DNA of 31,085 nt from the IMG/VR virus record IMGVR_UViG_3300013101_000057, positions 1-31,085 of that record; one strand, given 5' to 3'. Source of the DNA: a virus. Both the position numbers and the translations under genes were made by a program. Below the pieces are notes generated by a model that was not told the origin of the DNA, did not search any database, and saw nothing but the letters and a program-made list of their open reading frames with translations. Each line of letters starts with the position of its first letter. The first letter of the stretch is position 1. Positions 1,444 to 30,406 of this stretch are shown here, piece by piece.

Positions 1444-2004
1444 ATGAACACAACTGTTGAATCTTTAGTATCTATTACCAATGTCACCATGACTACACCT
1501 CCCGCACCTTTTTTAGATGCTATGGTTGCAGCAATTAACGAGCTTTCCGAAGAAGCTTGGAACAACCTTCCAGATGACGGAAAATCATGGTTTAACGAAG
1601 CAGCCAAAATTATTGAAAACACGGATGAAGGTATGGGATACACATTACCTTTAATACCAGGTATGGGTATGGAAGAAGAAGCACAACCTGAAAAGGAAGC
1701 ATCATCTGAACCTGAAAAGAATGAGGAAACACAACCTGAAAAGGAAACTATAGGCAAGGAAGAGAAAAAGGCTAAGAAACCTAAAAGAGAAGGACCTCCG
1801 GTTACACAACTTGCAAGAGAGATTTTTTGCAGCGATATCTCTATGACATTGGAAGAGCTTTTGACAAAGCTTGAAGAGAAAGGTATTGAAATTAAAAAAT
1901 CTACTGCACAGAATGTCTATCTCAATGCCCTACGTTCGTTTGAAACCGCTATAGAATTAGGCGAAGTTGAGAAAGCAGGAAAAGTTGTCTTAAAGGCGCA
2001 ATAA
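1444..2004 (+). CDS. Acidic-linker protein with small C-terminal helical domain (186 aa)
   Basis: I cannot name a family. Three parts can be seen. Residues 1-70 are a helical domain with a Trp-containing segment (EEAWNNLPDDGKSWFNEAA). Residues about 78-120 are a low-complexity linker of Glu, Lys and Pro in which QPEKE occurs twice. Residues about 121-186 are a compact helical domain starting VTQLAREIF, with spacing like a winged-helix or other small DNA-binding fold. A flexible charged linker between two domains fits a nucleoid-associated or transcription-related role, but this is inference. A strong terminator follows at 2027-2061, so the gene ends its transcript. The AGGAGA ribosome site upstream supports the start. 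Confidence 0.7.
   Translation: MNTTVESLVSITNVTMTTPPAPFLDAMVAAINELSEEAWNNLPDDGKSWFNEAAKIIENTDEGMGYTLPLIPGMGMEEEAQPEKEASSEPEKNEETQPEKETIGKEEKKAKKPKREGPPVTQLAREIFCSDISMTLEELLTKLEEKGIEIKKSTAQNVYLNALRSFETAIELGEVEKAGKVVLKAQ
1683..1746 (+). repeat. Imperfect internal repeat coding QPEKE linker
   Basis: The 16-mer ACAACCTGAAAAGGAA occurs at 1683-1698 and again at 1731-1746, with a partial copy (GAACCTGAAAAG) between them. It encodes the acidic Glu/Lys/Pro linker. Such short repeats usually expand by slippage. Confidence 0.7.
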
Positions 2005-2161: not shown

Positions 2162-3085
2162 ATGACAACTCGCACAGTATCTACCACAAAAGATTCACTT
2201 ATGTACATCGCACTTGACAGGTTGCAGCCTAATCGGTATCAACCTCGTCAGGATTTTAATCAAAAAGCATTAGAAGAGTTAGCAGACTCCATCGACAAAA
2301 ATGGTCTTGCACAACCGATTGTGATTCGTGCTATTGAAGATGGTTCTGGAAAAGTGGATCACGAAATTATAGCTGGTGAGCGTCGTTGGAGAGCAACAGC
2401 ATGGCTTGAAAAATCTCGTATTGCTGCTATCTTGAAAAAAGAGGCAACTGATGAAAGTTCCATGCAATTGGCACTCATCGAAAACATCCAGCGTGAGGAT
2501 TTAAATCCTCTTGAGGAATCCCGGTCCATTAATCATTTTATGGATATAATGAAATTGACACAGGAACAGGCAGCAGACCGTCTTGGAAAAACTCGTGCTT
2601 ACATTTCCAATATTGTCAGAATCGACAAATTGACAGATCCTGTAAAAGAGATCGTGAAAGAAGGTGTTTTGACAAAGTGGCATGCCACTGTACTTGTAGG
2701 TGTTGCAGATAAGGACTTGCAACAAAATCTTGCTAAAAAAGCATCTGATGGAAAATGGACTGTAGACACTTTAAAGAAAAGAATTAAAGCTGCCATTCCT
2801 AAAGAAACAACTTCTGCAAAAGGAAAAGCACCTGCAAAAAAGAAGCCTGGACCTGTGACAGCAAATGTATTGTTGCTGGAAGCGCCTTCTTCAAAGGCTT
2901 TAAAGGAATTGATAGAACTCCTTGAAGGTGAAGGAGGTTGGGAAATTTGGGAAGGCAGAGATGCTTTGGAAATAGTAAATGTCAAGGATCCAGAAGCTGA
3001 AGAAGAAAAACCAAAAACAAATGTATCCAGACTTTCTTCTTTAAGGAAAAAGGCAGCAAAACGTAAAGAAGAGGCAGAGACTTAA
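2162..3085 (+). CDS. ParB/Spo0J-like DNA-binding protein (307 aa)
   Basis: The N-terminal ParB/sulfiredoxin-like domain (residues about 14-115) has the phosphate-binding GERRWR motif at 72-77 and the ENIQR motif at 107-111. In true ParB proteins these bind CTP and form the DNA clamp. A helix-turn-helix follows at about 131-152 (LTQEQAADRLGKTRAYIS). The C-terminal third is Lys-rich, with a GKAPAKKKPG linker at about 224, then a small domain and a basic coiled tail. No ParA gene is visible nearby. Phage ParB-like proteins without ParA may act in DNA organisation or gene control rather than partition. The two TATA palindromes just upstream are possible binding sites. A terminator follows at 3112. 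Confidence 0.9.
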   Translation: MTTRTVSTTKDSLMYIALDRLQPNRYQPRQDFNQKALEELADSIDKNGLAQPIVIRAIEDGSGKVDHEIIAGERRWRATAWLEKSRIAAILKKEATDESSMQLALIENIQREDLNPLEESRSINHFMDIMKLTQEQAADRLGKTRAYISNIVRIDKLTDPVKEIVKEGVLTKWHATVLVGVADKDLQQNLAKKASDGKWTVDTLKKRIKAAIPKETTSAKGKAPAKKKPGPVTANVLLLEAPSSKALKELIELLEGEGGWEIWEGRDALEIVNVKDPEAEEEKPKTNVSRLSSLRKKAAKRKEEAET

Positions 3086-3111
3086 GAAATAAAGAAACAC
3101 AGGTACAATTT

Positions 3112-3137
3112 AAGGGACAGGAATGTCCCTTTTATTT
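3112..3137 (+). terminator. Rho-independent terminator after parB-like gene
   Basis: An 8-bp stem AAGGGACA/TGTCCCTT (3112-3119 with 3124-3131), a GGAA tetraloop of GNRA type and a T-rich tail (TTATTTT) form an intrinsic terminator 26 bases after the parB stop. Confidence 0.85.
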
Positions 3138-3325
3138 TGAATATAATATACCATAGAAACCATGCAATATAAGACGGTTTAAGCATGATTTTTATTAAAG
3201 CTATACACTGCTATTACTTTACTATGAAATACTGACAAACCTTATTACAATGCGAGTAACCACACAATCCAATTGTATTGTATACTGCATTTTTTTAACT
3301 ATAGAATAATTAGGAGATGTTTAAA
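3138..3325 (+). promoter_or_regulatory. Intergenic control region before folE
   Basis: This 190-base stretch holds no gene that I can find on either strand. Near its right end, TGTATACTG (3279-3287) resembles an extended -10 box and lies 39 bases before the folE start. TATACT also occurs at 6122 and 16913 ahead of other genes. CAATTG with flanking ACAAT/ATTGT arms (about 3264-3281) makes an imperfect dyad overlapping the same place. A promoter with an operator is plausible. An AGGAG ribosome site follows at 3312-3316. Confidence 0.4.
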
Positions 3326-20631: not shown

Positions 20632-20648
20632 ATACTACCCCTCCTGTT

Positions 20649-20679
20649 GCTGCCGGGGGTCATACTCGGCAGCCTTTTT
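20649..20679 (+). terminator. Terminator or attenuator between SSB and recA genes
   Basis: GCTGCCG (20649-20655) pairs with CGGCAGC (20667-20673), followed by CTTTTT. The 7-bp GC-rich stem with a T run is an intrinsic terminator. It would separate the strongly expressed SSB from recA, or pass part of the transcripts through. It explains why the in-frame extension of recA to 20647 is unlikely. Confidence 0.8.
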
Positions 20680-20691
20680 AAGGTTGTTTAC

Positions 20692-21741
20692 ATGACTGAA
20701 AGAGCTTCTATTACTCCCCGTACAGAAATTAAACCTAAAAATTCTTATTTTACTCAAATAGAAAAAGAGGGTATCGATTTCATACCTAGTGGCTGCACTC
20801 TTTTAGATTGTGTTCTTGGTGGAGGTTGGCCTTTAGGTCGTGTATCAAACATCGTAGGAGACAAAAGTTCAGGCAAGACACTTCTTGCAATAGAAGGATG
20901 TACAAATTTTCATTTTTTATATCCTAAAGGTAACATTATTTATTACGAAGCTGAATCCGCTTTTGACACAGACTACGCAGCCGCATTAGGTATGCCGGTA
21001 GATACAATAGATTTTGTAGGTACAGAAAATACAATTGAAGAATTGTACGAATTATTAGAAGACTTACTAGAAGATAAGACACTTATTAAACAACCTACTT
21101 TTTTTGTTGTAGATAGTTTAGATGGATTATCAGATAGAGCAGAACAAAAAAGAAAAATAGATGAAGGCACCTACGGTAGTAATAAAGCTAAAAAATTATC
21201 TGAAATGTTTAGAAGACTTATTTCTAAACTAGAAGAATGTAATGTCCATTTACAATTTATATCTCAATTAAGAGACAATATAGGAGCAATGATAGGTGCT
21301 AAACATAAACGTTCTGGTGGACGTGCCTTAGATTTTTATGCATCTCAAGTACTATGGTTAACAGAAATAAAGAAACATAAAAAAACCTCCAGAAAAATAC
21401 AAAGAGTAACAGGTATTCAGGTAAAGGCTGCTTGCAAGAAAAATAAAATTGGATTACCTTTTAGAGACTGTGAATTTCCTATCACATTTGGATATGGTGT
21501 AGATGATCTTGCTGCTCATATAGAATTTTTAAATAAAGTAGATGCTTTAGAAGATATACAAGACTTAATAGGATGGAATGGTAATAAATTAGATACTGCA
21601 AAACAAACGACTCTTATAAGAGGTATTAAAAGTAAATCTAACCAAGACCAACATCTTATAAGACAAGGTGTAAATAAAGAAATTAAAAAAATATGGAAAG
21701 AAATAGAACAAAATTTTATTCCCAAATCAAGTAAATATTAA
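20692..21741 (+). CDS. RecA/UvsX-like recombinase (349 aa)
   Basis: A strand-exchange ATPase that forms filaments on single-stranded DNA. The core shows PSGCTLLDCVLGGGWPLGR at about 32-50, Walker A GDKSSGKT at 56-63, a conserved Glu in IIYYEAESAFD, Walker B FFVVDSLDGL near 140, and a loop L2-like region with FISQLRDNIGAMIG and KHKRSGGRALDFYAS. The short N-terminus and length suit phage UvsX-like members. The ATG at 20692 has AAGG 8 bases upstream. The stop codon lies inside the 5' arm of the closing helix of the RNA element that follows. RuvC, SSB and Mre11-like genes nearby support a recombination role. Confidence 0.93.
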   Translation: MTERASITPRTEIKPKNSYFTQIEKEGIDFIPSGCTLLDCVLGGGWPLGRVSNIVGDKSSGKTLLAIEGCTNFHFLYPKGNIIYYEAESAFDTDYAAALGMPVDTIDFVGTENTIEELYELLEDLLEDKTLIKQPTFFVVDSLDGLSDRAEQKRKIDEGTYGSNKAKKLSEMFRRLISKLEECNVHLQFISQLRDNIGAMIGAKHKRSGGRALDFYASQVLWLTEIKKHKKTSRKIQRVTGIQVKAACKKNKIGLPFRDCEFPITFGYGVDDLAAHIEFLNKVDALEDIQDLIGWNGNKLDTAKQTTLIRGIKSKSNQDQHLIRQGVNKEIKKIWKEIEQNFIPKSSKY

Positions 21742-22026
21742 AAGTGATTTTAGGAGGTTGGCTTAGAGGCAGCAATCCTTTAAAGAGTGAGACGAAGACC
21801 TATCGCCGGTAGTTTAAGGAAGTGTGACTTGAGTACGGTTAAATACTTCTTTCTGATAGTCTAAAAGTGCAATACAACGCTATATCGCATTAATAGGTTA
21901 AAGGGTAGCACCCTTCACATCAGCTGAGATAGGAGTACTTTCGGTTAAGTATAGAGGCACCCCAGAAATGGTAAGGCTGAAATTCTCTTTGGCGTAGTAG
22001 CACACTATAATCACTTTTAATATTTA
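21732..22026 (+). ncRNA. Structured RNA resembling a miniature 23S rRNA (L11-binding hairpin plus PTC-like segments)
   Basis: A 287-base gap between recA and the 22029 gene has no open frame and is GC-richer (about 42% by hand count) than nearby genes. An 18-bp perfect helix (TAAATATTAAAAGTGATT, 21732-21749 with 22009-22026) closes it. At 21752-21788 the sequence, with GGTTGGCTTAGAGGCAGC and CCTTTAAAGAGTG, is nearly identical to helix 43 of bacterial 23S rRNA, the L11 and thiostrepton site. It folds as the AGGA/TCCT hairpin. Shorter matches to 23S domain V follow in order: AGACGAAGACC (21790), GGTAGTTT (21808), AGTGCAAT (21866), GGTTAAAGG (21896), TTCGGTTAAGTAT (21940). Other helices: 21780-21787 with 21985-21992, 21901-21906 with 21910-21915, and a pseudoknot-like 21821-21829 with 21999-22006. 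The second half of the L11 domain is absent. It is not a complete rRNA; function unknown. Confidence 0.75.
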
Positions 22027-22028
22027 TT

Positions 22029-22214
22029 ATGAATACTCAAGAAATAAAAGAATTATTTTCTATAACAGAAGTAATAACAATCATTACTTTTAGATCTAAA
22101 CCTTTTGTTAACATGACAGAAGACATGTGTAGAATTACAATAGATATGCCTATTAATTCTAAATTAAAACGCATTTTACAGGAAAAAAAGAATGGAACTT
22201 TACATAGGAATTGA
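22029..22214 (+). CDS. Small protein of unknown function (61 aa)
   Basis: It starts 3 bases after the RNA element ends and overlaps the RuvC-like gene by 23 bases. The sequence looks like a helix-strand-strand unit (TQEIKELFSITEVITIITF, then CRITIDMPINSKLKRIL) with a basic end. The start codon lies right beside the closing helix of the RNA, and no clear ribosome site is seen, so its translation could depend on RNA folding or processing. I do not recognise a family. Confidence 0.5.
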   Translation: MNTQEIKELFSITEVITIITFRSKPFVNMTEDMCRITIDMPINSKLKRILQEKKNGTLHRN

Positions 22215-22710
22215 TCCAGGAGCAAAAGGAGCTGTTTCTGCTGTTAATGGGAGAGGTCAATATGTGTCTTCAAAAGATATGCCTATTACTCCTAAAACAA
22301 CAGGTAAAGGTAACGAAACAAACGCTTACTTACTTGTTTCCGCTATAAAAGAAATAATATATGACTATGAAAGTACTGCTAGAGAGAAACTTGATTTTCT
22401 TGATATCCACATTGGGATAGAAGCTGTCAGTGCTATGCCAGGTCAAGGGGTAACAGGAATGTTTTCGTTCGGTAGGTCCTTAGGTGTTATTGAAGGTGTT
22501 ATTGCAGGACTAGGTTATCCAGTGACATTTTTTAGACCTAGAGCTTGGAAAAAAGTTCATGGATTAATAAGTAAAGATAAAGACCAAGCTAGAACTTTAG
22601 TTATAGGAAAATGGCCTGCATCTGCTCATTTCTTTAAACGAGTGAAAGACCAAGGCAGAGCGGATGCTGCATTAATAGCAGAAACTTTAAGGTTACAAAT
22701 ACAAGGATAA
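22192..22710 (+). CDS. RuvC-like Holliday junction resolvase (172 aa)
   Basis: RuvC cuts four-way DNA junctions. The RNase H-like fold shows YIGIDPGAKGA at residues 4-14 with the first catalytic Asp, a Glu in IGIEAVSAMPGQG near 80-92, and DQGRADAALIAETLRL near 150-165 with the last acidic pair (the Asp in RADA). The length is about the same as bacterial RuvC. The MPGQGV(T)GMFSFGRS loop is typical. Other recombination genes surround it. GGAAAAAAAG upstream serves as the ribosome site. Confidence 0.92.
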   Translation: MELYIGIDPGAKGAVSAVNGRGQYVSSKDMPITPKTTGKGNETNAYLLVSAIKEIIYDYESTAREKLDFLDIHIGIEAVSAMPGQGVTGMFSFGRSLGVIEGVIAGLGYPVTFFRPRAWKKVHGLISKDKDQARTLVIGKWPASAHFFKRVKDQGRADAALIAETLRLQIQG

Positions 22711-27765: not shown

Positions 27766-30406
27766 AAAAGCTGTAGAAGAATTTAAAAACAGAAAATTAG
27801 AATCATTTGACTGGATTAAAAAAGCCTCTGTAAAAGAACTTGAGGAAGCAATAGCTTCTCTACCTGCCCAAGTAAGACTTAAAAACAAATTCTACAAACA
27901 TCAAAAAGCATCTTTTTATGTTGGTGCTTGTCTTGATGAGTTCTCATATTTTTTGGATATGGGCACAGGTAAAGCGCAACCTTTGGATGCATTAATAATG
28001 ACTCCTAAAGGTTATAAACAAATGGGAGATTTAAAAATAGGGGATGTAATAAGTCATCCTATCCAACATACTTCTAAAATTATTGCTATCCATCCTCAAA
28101 AAGAACGAGCCGTTTATAAAGTAACTTTTGGAGATAATTCATTTACTGAATGTTGTGAAAATCATTTATGGGCAATTAATACAGCACAAAGAAATAGAAA
28201 AAATCTGCCTTATAGAACTAAAGCTTTAAAGGATTTTAAAGATGATTTAACAGATAATGGTTATTTGCACAATCGAAAACATTTCATCCCTATCACTCAA
28301 TCTTTAAATTTAGAACAGTACGAACACACACTTAAAAGTTTACATCCTTATGTGTTAGGCGTTTTATTAGGTGATGGAAGTTTATCTAATAATGGAGCAA
28401 GTTTTACATCTACTGATCCTGAACTTGCAGAAAAAGTAAGATCATTTTTACCTATAGGTGTAACTTTAGTACATCCAGAGAATTCTTTATTATACAGAAT
28501 AAGATCAAAACAAGGGAATCTAAGCCAACAAAATCATACTAATTTTGTGTTGCTAGCCATAAGAAAATTAAAACTTAATGGCACAACTTCTCATACAAAA
28601 TTTGTTCCTAAATCATATTTATACACATCTATACAAAATAGATTAGAAATATTACGTGGATTAATAGATACAGATGGGTATGTAAGTAATGGAGGAGAAA
28701 TAATTTACACTTCCGCATCTAAACAACTTGCTACAGATGTTCAATTTATAGCACAATCATTAGGATGTACCGCAAGATTTAAACAAACTACATATTCAGG
28801 AAAAATAGAAAAATACAAAGGTAATATTTATTACGATATAACAATAAGAACATCTTTTGGATTAGATATTTGTACACTTCCTAGAAAATTAAATAGATTA
28901 AAAAATAAAAAATATGGATCTTGTAGATCAATTAAATCTGTGGAATTTATAGGATATAAATTTGCACAATGTATTACAATAGATAAACCAGATGGTTTAT
29001 ATCTAACAAATGATTTTATAGTCACACATAATTCTCTAATCTCGTTAGCCTTAATTTTATATAGACAAAAACTTTTCCAAATTCAAAGAGCTTTAATTAT
29101 TGTTCCTAATGTTCTCAATTTAGAAGGTTGGGCAGAAGAAATACAAAAACAAACCAATCTTGAATTTAGGTTATTGTATGGAACTAAAGAAGAACGATTA
29201 TTTGAATTAGAACAAGAATCCGATATTTATATAATCAATTATGCCGGACTACAAACAGTTATGGCATCTTTACAAAAACAACATAACAAAAAACAAAAGA
29301 AAAGAGTTCCAGATACAAAATTAATCCGTAAATTCACTTCCAAATTTCAAATGGTTGTATTTGATGAAATTCATATTTGCAAAAATAAAGAAAGTTTAAT
29401 CTATAAACTTTGTAATCAAATCTCCAAAAATTGTACATACAGATTAGGGATGACAGGAACACCTTTTGGACGAAATCCTATTGATTTCTGGGCACAATTT
29501 TATTTAGTAGATAGAGGACTAACACTAGGTTCGACTTTAGGAATGTACAGAGCTGCATTTTTTGAGGAGTCTAAAAATATATGGGGAGGAAACGACTATT
29601 CCTTTAACAAAGAATCTGAACCTGCTCTACATAAAATGATTAAAAATCGTTCTTTAAGATATAAAGATTCCGAATGTGGTGATCTTCCTAGAAAAGTTTC
29701 TATCAATGTTCCTATAAGATTAGCACCAGATGCGTTAGAATATTATAAACAATTGGTAGAAGAATCTTACGAGACTTTAGATACACAAGATACAAGGATG
29801 AATTATTATGCTAAATTCCGTCAGATTTCTTCTGGATTTGTATACATAAAGGATGAGGAATTCGATACTAGAGTTGCATTAAGATTTTCTTACACAGAGA
29901 AATTAGATGCAATTGACATTGTATTAGATGAGATTCCTAAAACCTCTTCTCTTATAATTTTTCATGTGTTTACAGAATCAGGAGAACTTATTACAGAGCA
30001 TTTAAAAAAGAAAAAAATAAATTTTGCAGCCTTAAACTCTACTGCAAAAGCAGCAAAAACATCTGTTCAAAAAGAATATCAAAGATTTAAAAAAGAAAAA
30101 CAATGCAGAGTTGCAGTAGTCAATATAGCTTCAGGTTCAACAGGATTAAATTTACAAAAGGCAAATTATTCTATTTTTTATGAACCTACAGACAGACCTA
30201 TATGGCAAAGACAATCAGAAAAAAGAACCCACAGAGATGGTCAAACAAAACGTTGTTACAACTATTATTTCTATGTACCAAACACAGTGGAAGATCAAGT
30301 AAGAACTTTCTTAAAAGAGGGAAAATCCTTGTTTGATGCTTTGGTAGAAGGAAAGGAAGACATGCGTTCTATGATAGCAGGATTTAACAAATTAAAAAGT
30401 TCTTAG
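27755..30406 (+). CDS. SNF2-like DEAD/H helicase carrying an intein (883 aa precursor)
   Basis: The extein is a superfamily 2 helicase. FYKHQKASFYVGA near 45 is the Q-motif-like start. GTGK at 70-73 followed, after the intein, by SLISLAL forms Walker A. DEIH at 537 is motif II, GMTGTPFG is motif III, and LIIFHVFTESGE, VVNIASGSTGLNLQ and QRQSEKRTHRDGQ are motifs IV-VI of the SNF2 type (the RxxRxGQ box). Removal of the 353-residue intein (74-426) leaves a 530-residue enzyme. Phage members may remodel or unwind recombination intermediates like T4 UvsW. The ATG at 27755 overlaps the previous gene by 11 bases; an extension to 27737 lacks support. Confidence 0.92.
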   Translation: MISKKAVEEFKNRKLESFDWIKKASVKELEEAIASLPAQVRLKNKFYKHQKASFYVGACLDEFSYFLDMGTGKAQPLDALIMTPKGYKQMGDLKIGDVISHPIQHTSKIIAIHPQKERAVYKVTFGDNSFTECCENHLWAINTAQRNRKNLPYRTKALKDFKDDLTDNGYLHNRKHFIPITQSLNLEQYEHTLKSLHPYVLGVLLGDGSLSNNGASFTSTDPELAEKVRSFLPIGVTLVHPENSLLYRIRSKQGNLSQQNHTNFVLLAIRKLKLNGTTSHTKFVPKSYLYTSIQNRLEILRGLIDTDGYVSNGGEIIYTSASKQLATDVQFIAQSLGCTARFKQTTYSGKIEKYKGNIYYDITIRTSFGLDICTLPRKLNRLKNKKYGSCRSIKSVEFIGYKFAQCITIDKPDGLYLTNDFIVTHNSLISLALILYRQKLFQIQRALIIVPNVLNLEGWAEEIQKQTNLEFRLLYGTKEERLFELEQESDIYIINYAGLQTVMASLQKQHNKKQKKRVPDTKLIRKFTSKFQMVVFDEIHICKNKESLIYKLCNQISKNCTYRLGMTGTPFGRNPIDFWAQFYLVDRGLTLGSTLGMYRAAFFEESKNIWGGNDYSFNKESEPALHKMIKNRSLRYKDSECGDLPRKVSINVPIRLAPDALEYYKQLVEESYETLDTQDTRMNYYAKFRQISSGFVYIKDEEFDTRVALRFSYTEKLDAIDIVLDEIPKTSSLIIFHVFTESGELITEHLKKKKINFAALNSTAKAAKTSVQKEYQRFKKEKQCRVAVVNIASGSTGLNLQKANYSIFYEPTDRPIWQRQSEKRTHRDGQTKRCYNYYFYVPNTVEDQVRTFLKEGKSLFDALVEGKEDMRSMIAGFNKLKSS
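27974..29032 (+). mobile_element. Class 3 intein with LAGLIDADG homing endonuclease (353 aa)
   Basis: The in-frame element interrupts the Walker A motif between GTGK and Ser. It starts with Ala1 (AQPLDALIMTP), not Cys or Ser, and ends VTHN with Ser+1. Three residues that mark class 3 inteins are visible: Trp two places after the block B His (CCENHLW), Cys in block F (QCITID) and Thr in block G (VTHN). Class 3 inteins use the block F Cys as the first nucleophile. The endonuclease shows both LAGLIDADG motifs, VLGVLLGDGSL and ILRGLIDTDGY, apparently intact. It therefore can probably home. Removal restores the helicase P-loop GTGKS. Confidence 0.93.

Follow-up and report, generated by a model that had tools for sequence, protein, structure and literature searches.

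Why would a phage carry, between two of its genes, what reads like the L11-binding part of 23S ribosomal RNA (rRNA)? The question is raised by the IMG/VR virus record IMGVR_UViG_3300013101_000057, of which positions 1 to 31,085 were analysed (this whole 31,085-nucleotide stretch is called the window). We predict an intergenic RNA of ~281 nucleotides (nt) at 21739-22019 (+), between a RecA-like open reading frame (ORF) and the ORF at 22029-22214. The constant part of this predicted RNA is a complete GTPase-associated centre (GAC; helices 42 to 44, H42-H44) closed by its own stem, and we refer to it as GAC RNA. In our judgement there is about an even chance that GAC RNA acts in trans as a noncoding phage RNA and captures L11 of the host, either alone or together with the L10/L12 stalk.

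Identification of the GAC domain

The first-pass annotation placed a copy of the L11-binding hairpin at 21752-21788, and the letters it claimed are present: GGTTGGCTTAGAGGCAGC at 21756-21773 and CCTTTAAAGAGTG at 21777-21789. It expected few differences from the 23S consensus, and the GGA..GUG segment differs from the Rfam bacterial large subunit (LSU) consensus at two positions (A1070G and C1076A, 23S numbering). It also described a truncated domain that had lost its second half, the GUAAUA loop. That description was mistaken: this half is found ~200 nt downstream as TTTGGCGTAGTAGCACAC (21988-22005), and both halves are there, split by an inserted arm of 199 nt. Downstream of the second half is the complement of the sequence preceding the first, closing H42.

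The H43-like hairpin has the equivalents of U1060 (U21758), A1067 (A21765) and C1072 (C21770). Those of A1088 (21786) and U1090 (21788) are in the linker, and that of A1095 (21996) is in the H44 loop GCGUARYAGC (21992-22001). The H42 stem that links both halves is extended to 15 positions with one U-U mismatch. The arm separates 23S positions 1090 and 1091 and has a base stem of 4 base pairs (21789-21792 / 21984-21987). H44 is thus not uninterrupted and the 58-nt length of the ribosomal domain is exceeded. The domain does not lie within a 23S rRNA gene, as the Rfam LSU search matched no other 23S part near it. The stop codon of the RecA-like ORF overlaps the first stem bases (ORF end 21741, stem start 21739), and no ORF of at least 60 amino acids was found inside 21739-22019 on either strand.

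The Rfam LSU_rRNA_bacteria model, a check proposed in the first pass, does match 21753-21804 (model positions 1096-1145, 14.8 bits), at an E value of 0.016 and well under the gathering score of 50. Nothing in the window was at or above the gathering score of any Rfam 15 family, and we regard this lone LSU match as suggestive, not decisive. With the window left out, we trained a covariance model on 42 other members; it retrieved both halves (21744-21802, E = 2e-7; 21945-22014, E = 1.5e-4) and gave no further match on either strand of the 31-kb window. A chance match is ruled out by the independent retrieval of each half and by the covariation described below.

Distribution of GAC RNA

A search of IMG/VR with 22 bases of the 5′ half returned 44 stretches, and 40 of these have the phage-type 3′ half within 480 nt, always with A and never U at 23S position 1101. 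Two of the four stretches without a 3′ half end at the stretch edge. The 3′ half (18 bases) was found in at least 120 stretches. Among the matches listed, 88 of the 103 new viral cases off the edges have a 5′ half recognisable by a simple pattern; the remaining 15 have a divergent 5′ half in the same place, and those tested were confirmed by the covariance model. Among 84,980 genomes of bacteria and archaea, there are 25 occurrences of the 3′ pattern, about half of them accompanied by the 5′ half. One of these occurrences is among phage genes in a Flintibacter isolate (L183).

At least 129 distinct members with one shared architecture were collected, many of them metagenomic fragments. Conservation of the hairpin in relatives had been set beforehand as a test, and the L11-binding, thiostrepton-loop domain is kept, as a phage-encoded RNA, in related and unrelated phages. 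Carriers in culture include Pseudomonas phages pf16 (RNA near 29422-29607 of KU873925), Astolliot, Milchi, and UNO-G1W1, Aeromonas phage 4_4572, Cronobacter phage GAP32, Serratia phage BF, and Xanthomonas phages XaC1 and XacN1; blastn adds the Erwinia SNUABM phages and Pectobacterium phage CBB. Other members, L044 and L031 included, come from phages known through metagenomes and from a small number of loci on plasmids or in prophages (among the plasmids, Aromatoleum EbN1 plasmid 1 and one of 910 kb from Pseudomonas that has a tRNA array). The covariance model gave E <= 0.001 for 36 of 37 member-carrying records. There is one copy per viral or plasmid record (the two matches in one record are the two halves of its RNA), and two bacterial genomes have two matches each, one possibly from their own 23S.

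Some "phage" records carry annotated 23S genes and were removed from the family as contamination. The short "phage" records OR845016, OR850018, OR847528 and similar ones match at the place expected for 23S and are probably contaminated by host 23S. Paenibacillus phage Pd_22F (L051) was excluded for continuous 23S sequence around its match. Vibrio phage MAR10 is, judged by RecA, among the closest relatives in culture; its next gene starts ~20 nt after RecA, so there is no room for GAC RNA at this place. Hypothetical proteins annotated antisense over GAC RNA in UNO-G1W1 (L055 3069-3176 (-)) and Milchi (L058 3028-3159 (-)) are probably annotation artefacts.

The first-pass annotation knew of no phage RNA with this motif, and we found no published description of GAC RNA in the open-access literature (subscription papers and preprints were outside the search). 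The family is absent from Rfam 15 as well.

Covariation and conservation

Covariation was tested on a gap-free alignment of 42 members with 25 proposed pairs. Standard pairs occupy 93.2% of the cells, and the covariation score is 0.570, versus 0.139 in shuffles (0/500) and at most 0.168 with slid partners. Both sides have changed at each of the nine pairs of the closing stem (89.9% of cells paired) and at each of the four pairs of the arm base. Compensatory changes in H43 are seen at 1058-1080 and, among divergent members, also at 1064-1074 (C-G in 110 members, A-U in 8, and G-C in 2). By this comparison, GAC RNA is a structured RNA.

Whereas the helices covary, hardly any change is seen at the unpaired GAC bases. 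Among 116 members, U1060 and C1072 are kept in all 116, A1095 in 115, A1069 and A1077 in 113 each, A1067 in 105, and A1088 in 95. Conservation in the 3′ columns, partly fixed by the search pattern, is overstated; the search with the 5′ half only, which is free of this bias, gives the same 3′ pattern.

The inserted arm

The arm is ~55 to 370 nt long across members and is of several types. Type A is found in 33 members, including the window, in unrelated phages, and ends in a hairpin of the form CACC-CC(GNRA-like)GG-UAAGG with a covarying base (pair GC/UA/CG, alignment columns 190-211). The phage contig L040 shares the gene order of the window, with protein identities of 73% for RecA, 80% for the 61-amino-acid ORF and 72% for the resolvase, and its flanking genes are 76-81% identical in DNA. 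The first 48 nt and last ~40 nt of its RNA are nearly identical to those of the window, whereas the arms are unrelated and of different types. Because the two loci share flanks and GAC and differ in the arm, we conclude that the GAC was kept and the arm exchanged. Across the predicted family the arm is hypervariable, and one arm takes the place of another even in close relatives with shared flanking genes.

A small lineage carries a hairpin in the arm that resembles the sarcin-ricin loop, the other half of the factor-binding site of the ribosome. It is found in L009 and L031 (= L044) and, more weakly, in L126 and L152. One copy has the exact AGUACGAGAGGA and another has one mismatch, and the stem base pairs differ between copies. 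Matches with three mismatches are as frequent in shuffled arms (9.05 expected, 10 seen), so only copies with no or one mismatch, and their homologues, were counted. A targeted scan found no further GAC RNA with the hairpin (the four other stretches returned carry no GAC RNA), the arm of the window lacks the hairpin, and an Rfam search of four sarcin-ricin-type loci gave LSU support for L009 only. We reject the loop as a general feature, as it is limited to ~4 of roughly 120 members. Since the sarcin-ricin motif recurs as a module in RNAs and could have independent origins, and since it is rare here, the hairpin is suggestive only. No group I or group II intron was matched by Rfam in 21700-22060 at E values up to 10.

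Genomic context

Table 1. Features of the GAC RNA locus in the window
Feature	Positions	Strand	Basis
Whole RNA: GAC domain and inserted arm	21739..22019	+	Both halves matched by covariance model
Closing stem, 5′ strand (23S H42 equivalent)	21739..21753	+	Pairs with 22005-22019
Closing stem, 3′ strand	22005..22019	+	Partner of 21739-21753
H43-like hairpin, L11/thiostrepton loop	21755..21779	+	Rfam LSU match, covariance-model match, conservation
UUAAAGAGU linker and H44 5′ flank	21780..21788	+	Aligned to 23S 1082-1090; conservation
Inserted arm, type A, 199 nt	21789..21987	+	Boundaries from member comparison
Type-A hairpin GGC-ACC-CCA(GAAA)UGG-UAAG-GCU, near arm 3′ end	21956..21978	+	Common to 33 members; covarying pair; blastn of arm
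GAC 3′ half UUUGGCGUAGUAGCACA, GUAAUA-type H44 loop	21988..22004	+	Second covariance-model match
RecA/UvsX-like recombinase, upstream gene	20647..21741	+	PHROG 97 E 1.3e-57, Pfam RecA E 7e-36
61-amino-acid ORF, unknown, downstream gene	22029..22214	+	Same order in L040
RuvC-like resolvase, after 61-amino-acid ORF	22192-22710	+	Same order in L040

GAC RNA is often found near tRNA genes. A tRNA is within 300 nt of 64 of 128 members (random placement within these loci predicts 32), and in 73 of 73 cases GAC RNA shares its strand with the nearest tRNA within 1 kb. No protein family recurs beside GAC RNA (the largest cluster includes 4-5 of 129 loci), which argues against a leader of one gene. No L11 gene was found in 35 carrier genomes (control genomes were positive, 14/14), so any bound L11 must be that of the host. 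Three carriers encode a protein that partly matches the C-terminal domain of ribosomal protein L12 (profile positions ~8-38), above the Pfam cut-off: UNO-G1W1 (PP551948 96300-96383) and the records of L017 and L012.

Some of the tRNA arrays have other RNA genes. The L044 array has 19 tRNAs, GAC RNA and a match to bacterial small signal recognition particle (SRP) RNA at 1914-1957 (-) of the locus (IMGVR_UViG_3300032205_000001; 40.7 bits, gathering score 40). Transfer-messenger RNA (tmRNA) genes are near GAC RNA in four phage tRNA arrays (L016 1864-2208, L029 2637-3012, L042 10752-11098, and L152 4052-4411), and in L126 a group I intron (2941-3164 (+), 70 bits) is in the tRNA array upstream of GAC RNA. 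The 910-kb Pseudomonas plasmid CP136011 (L053, L192) has a large tRNA array that encloses GAC RNA; a phage-like or mega-element origin is possible. Among the Flintibacter phage genes (L183 2522-4714 (+)), an RNA ligase is encoded ~1.2 kb downstream of GAC RNA, and the protein also has polynucleotide kinase-like and phosphatase-like regions.

Possible functions

We infer transcription, L11 binding and an effect on translation or RelA from the sequence. GAC RNA would be transcribed with neighbouring genes or tRNAs, fold, and be trimmed down to the closing stem. The GAC part would then capture host uL11, possibly with the uL10/bL12 stalk, from 23S rRNA or in competition with it. The arm, inside H44, would leave the outer stem of the GAC unbroken and add a second, variable function, with binding of L11 followed by presentation of the arm. 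As a likely outcome, host ribosomes would use translation factors or RelA differently. In the RelA complex A1067 stacks on the elbow of the tRNA, and thiostrepton blocks RelA activation by deacylated A-site tRNA (PMC5829649). The observed elements behind this model are a sequence and helices like those of the GAC, the closing stem and the inserted arm, a single copy per phage, and no phage L11. A decoy for host L11 or L10/L12 with an effect on the stringent response, as the first-pass annotation suggested, is compatible with the sequence because the key GAC nucleotides are kept, the carriers have no L11, and there is no adjacent conserved target gene.

Several observations count against capture of L11 by this RNA. 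Free-energy folding of the window RNA is not better than that of shuffles (z = -0.60), and support therefore rests on comparison; imposing the conserved helices costs less than 3 kcal/mol (-64.1 forced, -66.9 free). In the window copy 1062-1076 is a G-A mismatch, a feature common to ~12 members, and U1101 of 23S is always A in GAC RNAs. The insertion in the H44 stem could alter the tertiary fold recognised by L11, and the window itself has no tRNA array.

A wider possibility, to which we give only tentative weight, is a modular RNA machine. A portable GAC would dock host L11 and the L10/L12 stalk, and an exchangeable effector arm, in one lineage with a sarcin-ricin-like loop, would reprogram factor recruitment or the stringent response.

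Alternatively, GAC RNA may bind translational GTPases (EF-G, IF2, EF-Tu, RF3) or the tRNA elbow directly, as a factor-binding site made portable, with L11 secondary. In isolation, sarcin-ricin RNA binds EF-G and IF2 at micromolar affinity (PMC5829649). The sarcin-ricin-like arm hairpins and the enrichment near tRNAs would fit such binding, but the hairpin, possibly of independent origin, is confined to its small lineage and is not in the window. We consider direct binding unlikely.

The GAC could instead be a stable, compact RNA clamp that presents an active arm, with L11 binding irrelevant. The arm is large and its families recur in unrelated phages (as type A does), but a clamp would have no need to keep the L11 and thiostrepton nucleotides, and it is the unpaired bases, dispensable for the helices, that are nearly invariant. 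Moreover, between the window and L040 the arm is the part that is swapped and the GAC stays. These points make a mere clamp improbable.

About as improbable, and in our ranking just below the clamp, is a role as decoy substrate: host defence enzymes or toxins directed at the ribosomal GTPase centre would attack or modify GAC RNA instead. The frequent location in tRNA arrays would suit this role, as would RNA-processing or repair genes beside some copies (RNA ligase in L183, 2′-5′ RNA ligase in XacN1, and peptidyl-tRNA hydrolase in XaC1). These neighbours do not recur across members, however, and a large, variable arm would be superfluous in a decoy substrate. The enzymes we know to attack this region target the sarcin-ricin loop and not the GAC, which also counts against it.

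It is very unlikely that GAC RNA is a leader acting in cis, a 23S gene relic, or an intron that splices itself out of an rRNA fragment: the RNA does sit between co-directional genes, ~10 nt before ORF 22029, but downstream genes differ between phages and no conserved gene recurs among the loci for it to lead, no other 23S part is present and covariation shows selection, and the arm has no intron match.

If capture of host L11 is correct, phages would widely carry an RNA class in imitation of a working large-subunit domain, and we know of no precedent for this. Such an RNA would offer a direct, testable way into the question of how phages might take control of translation or dampen the stringent response with no protein involved. 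The biochemistry of L11 and thiostrepton has been established for decades, which makes the idea testable. The swappable arm points to arms-race evolution.

Comparison with known RNAs

Like GAC RNA, T4 stable RNAs C and D are small phage RNAs that lie next to tRNA genes and have no known role. Neither is a member, as rnaC and rnaD have no GAC and no covariance-model match; in T4 the GAC model gave a single weak match (11.6 bits, E 0.067), and this falls within segB, a homing endonuclease gene. At its 3′ end rnaC resembles a tRNA T-arm.

GOLLD, ROOL and OLE are likewise structured noncoding RNAs of bacteria and phages, and GOLLD is found near tRNAs, as are some GAC RNA members. Unlike these, GAC RNA is much smaller, holds an rRNA domain, and has only an LSU fragment as its Rfam match.

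Ribosomal protein leader RNAs, such as the L10 leader, are non-ribosomal RNAs that imitate the rRNA site of a protein, as GAC RNA does. Unlike them, GAC RNA is not joined to a ribosomal protein gene: no conserved gene follows it, and 35 carriers have no L11.

The bacterial 23S GAC (H42-H44, E. coli 1051-1108) differs from the phage RNA in several ways. GAC RNA is a stand-alone gene with no surrounding rRNA and has an arm of 55-370 nt between 1090 and 1091, an A at 1101 that pairs with U1090, and an extended, variable H42. The two share, in the same order, the closing stem, H43 with U1060, A1067, C1072 and A1088, and the H44 loop GCGUARYAGC with A1095.
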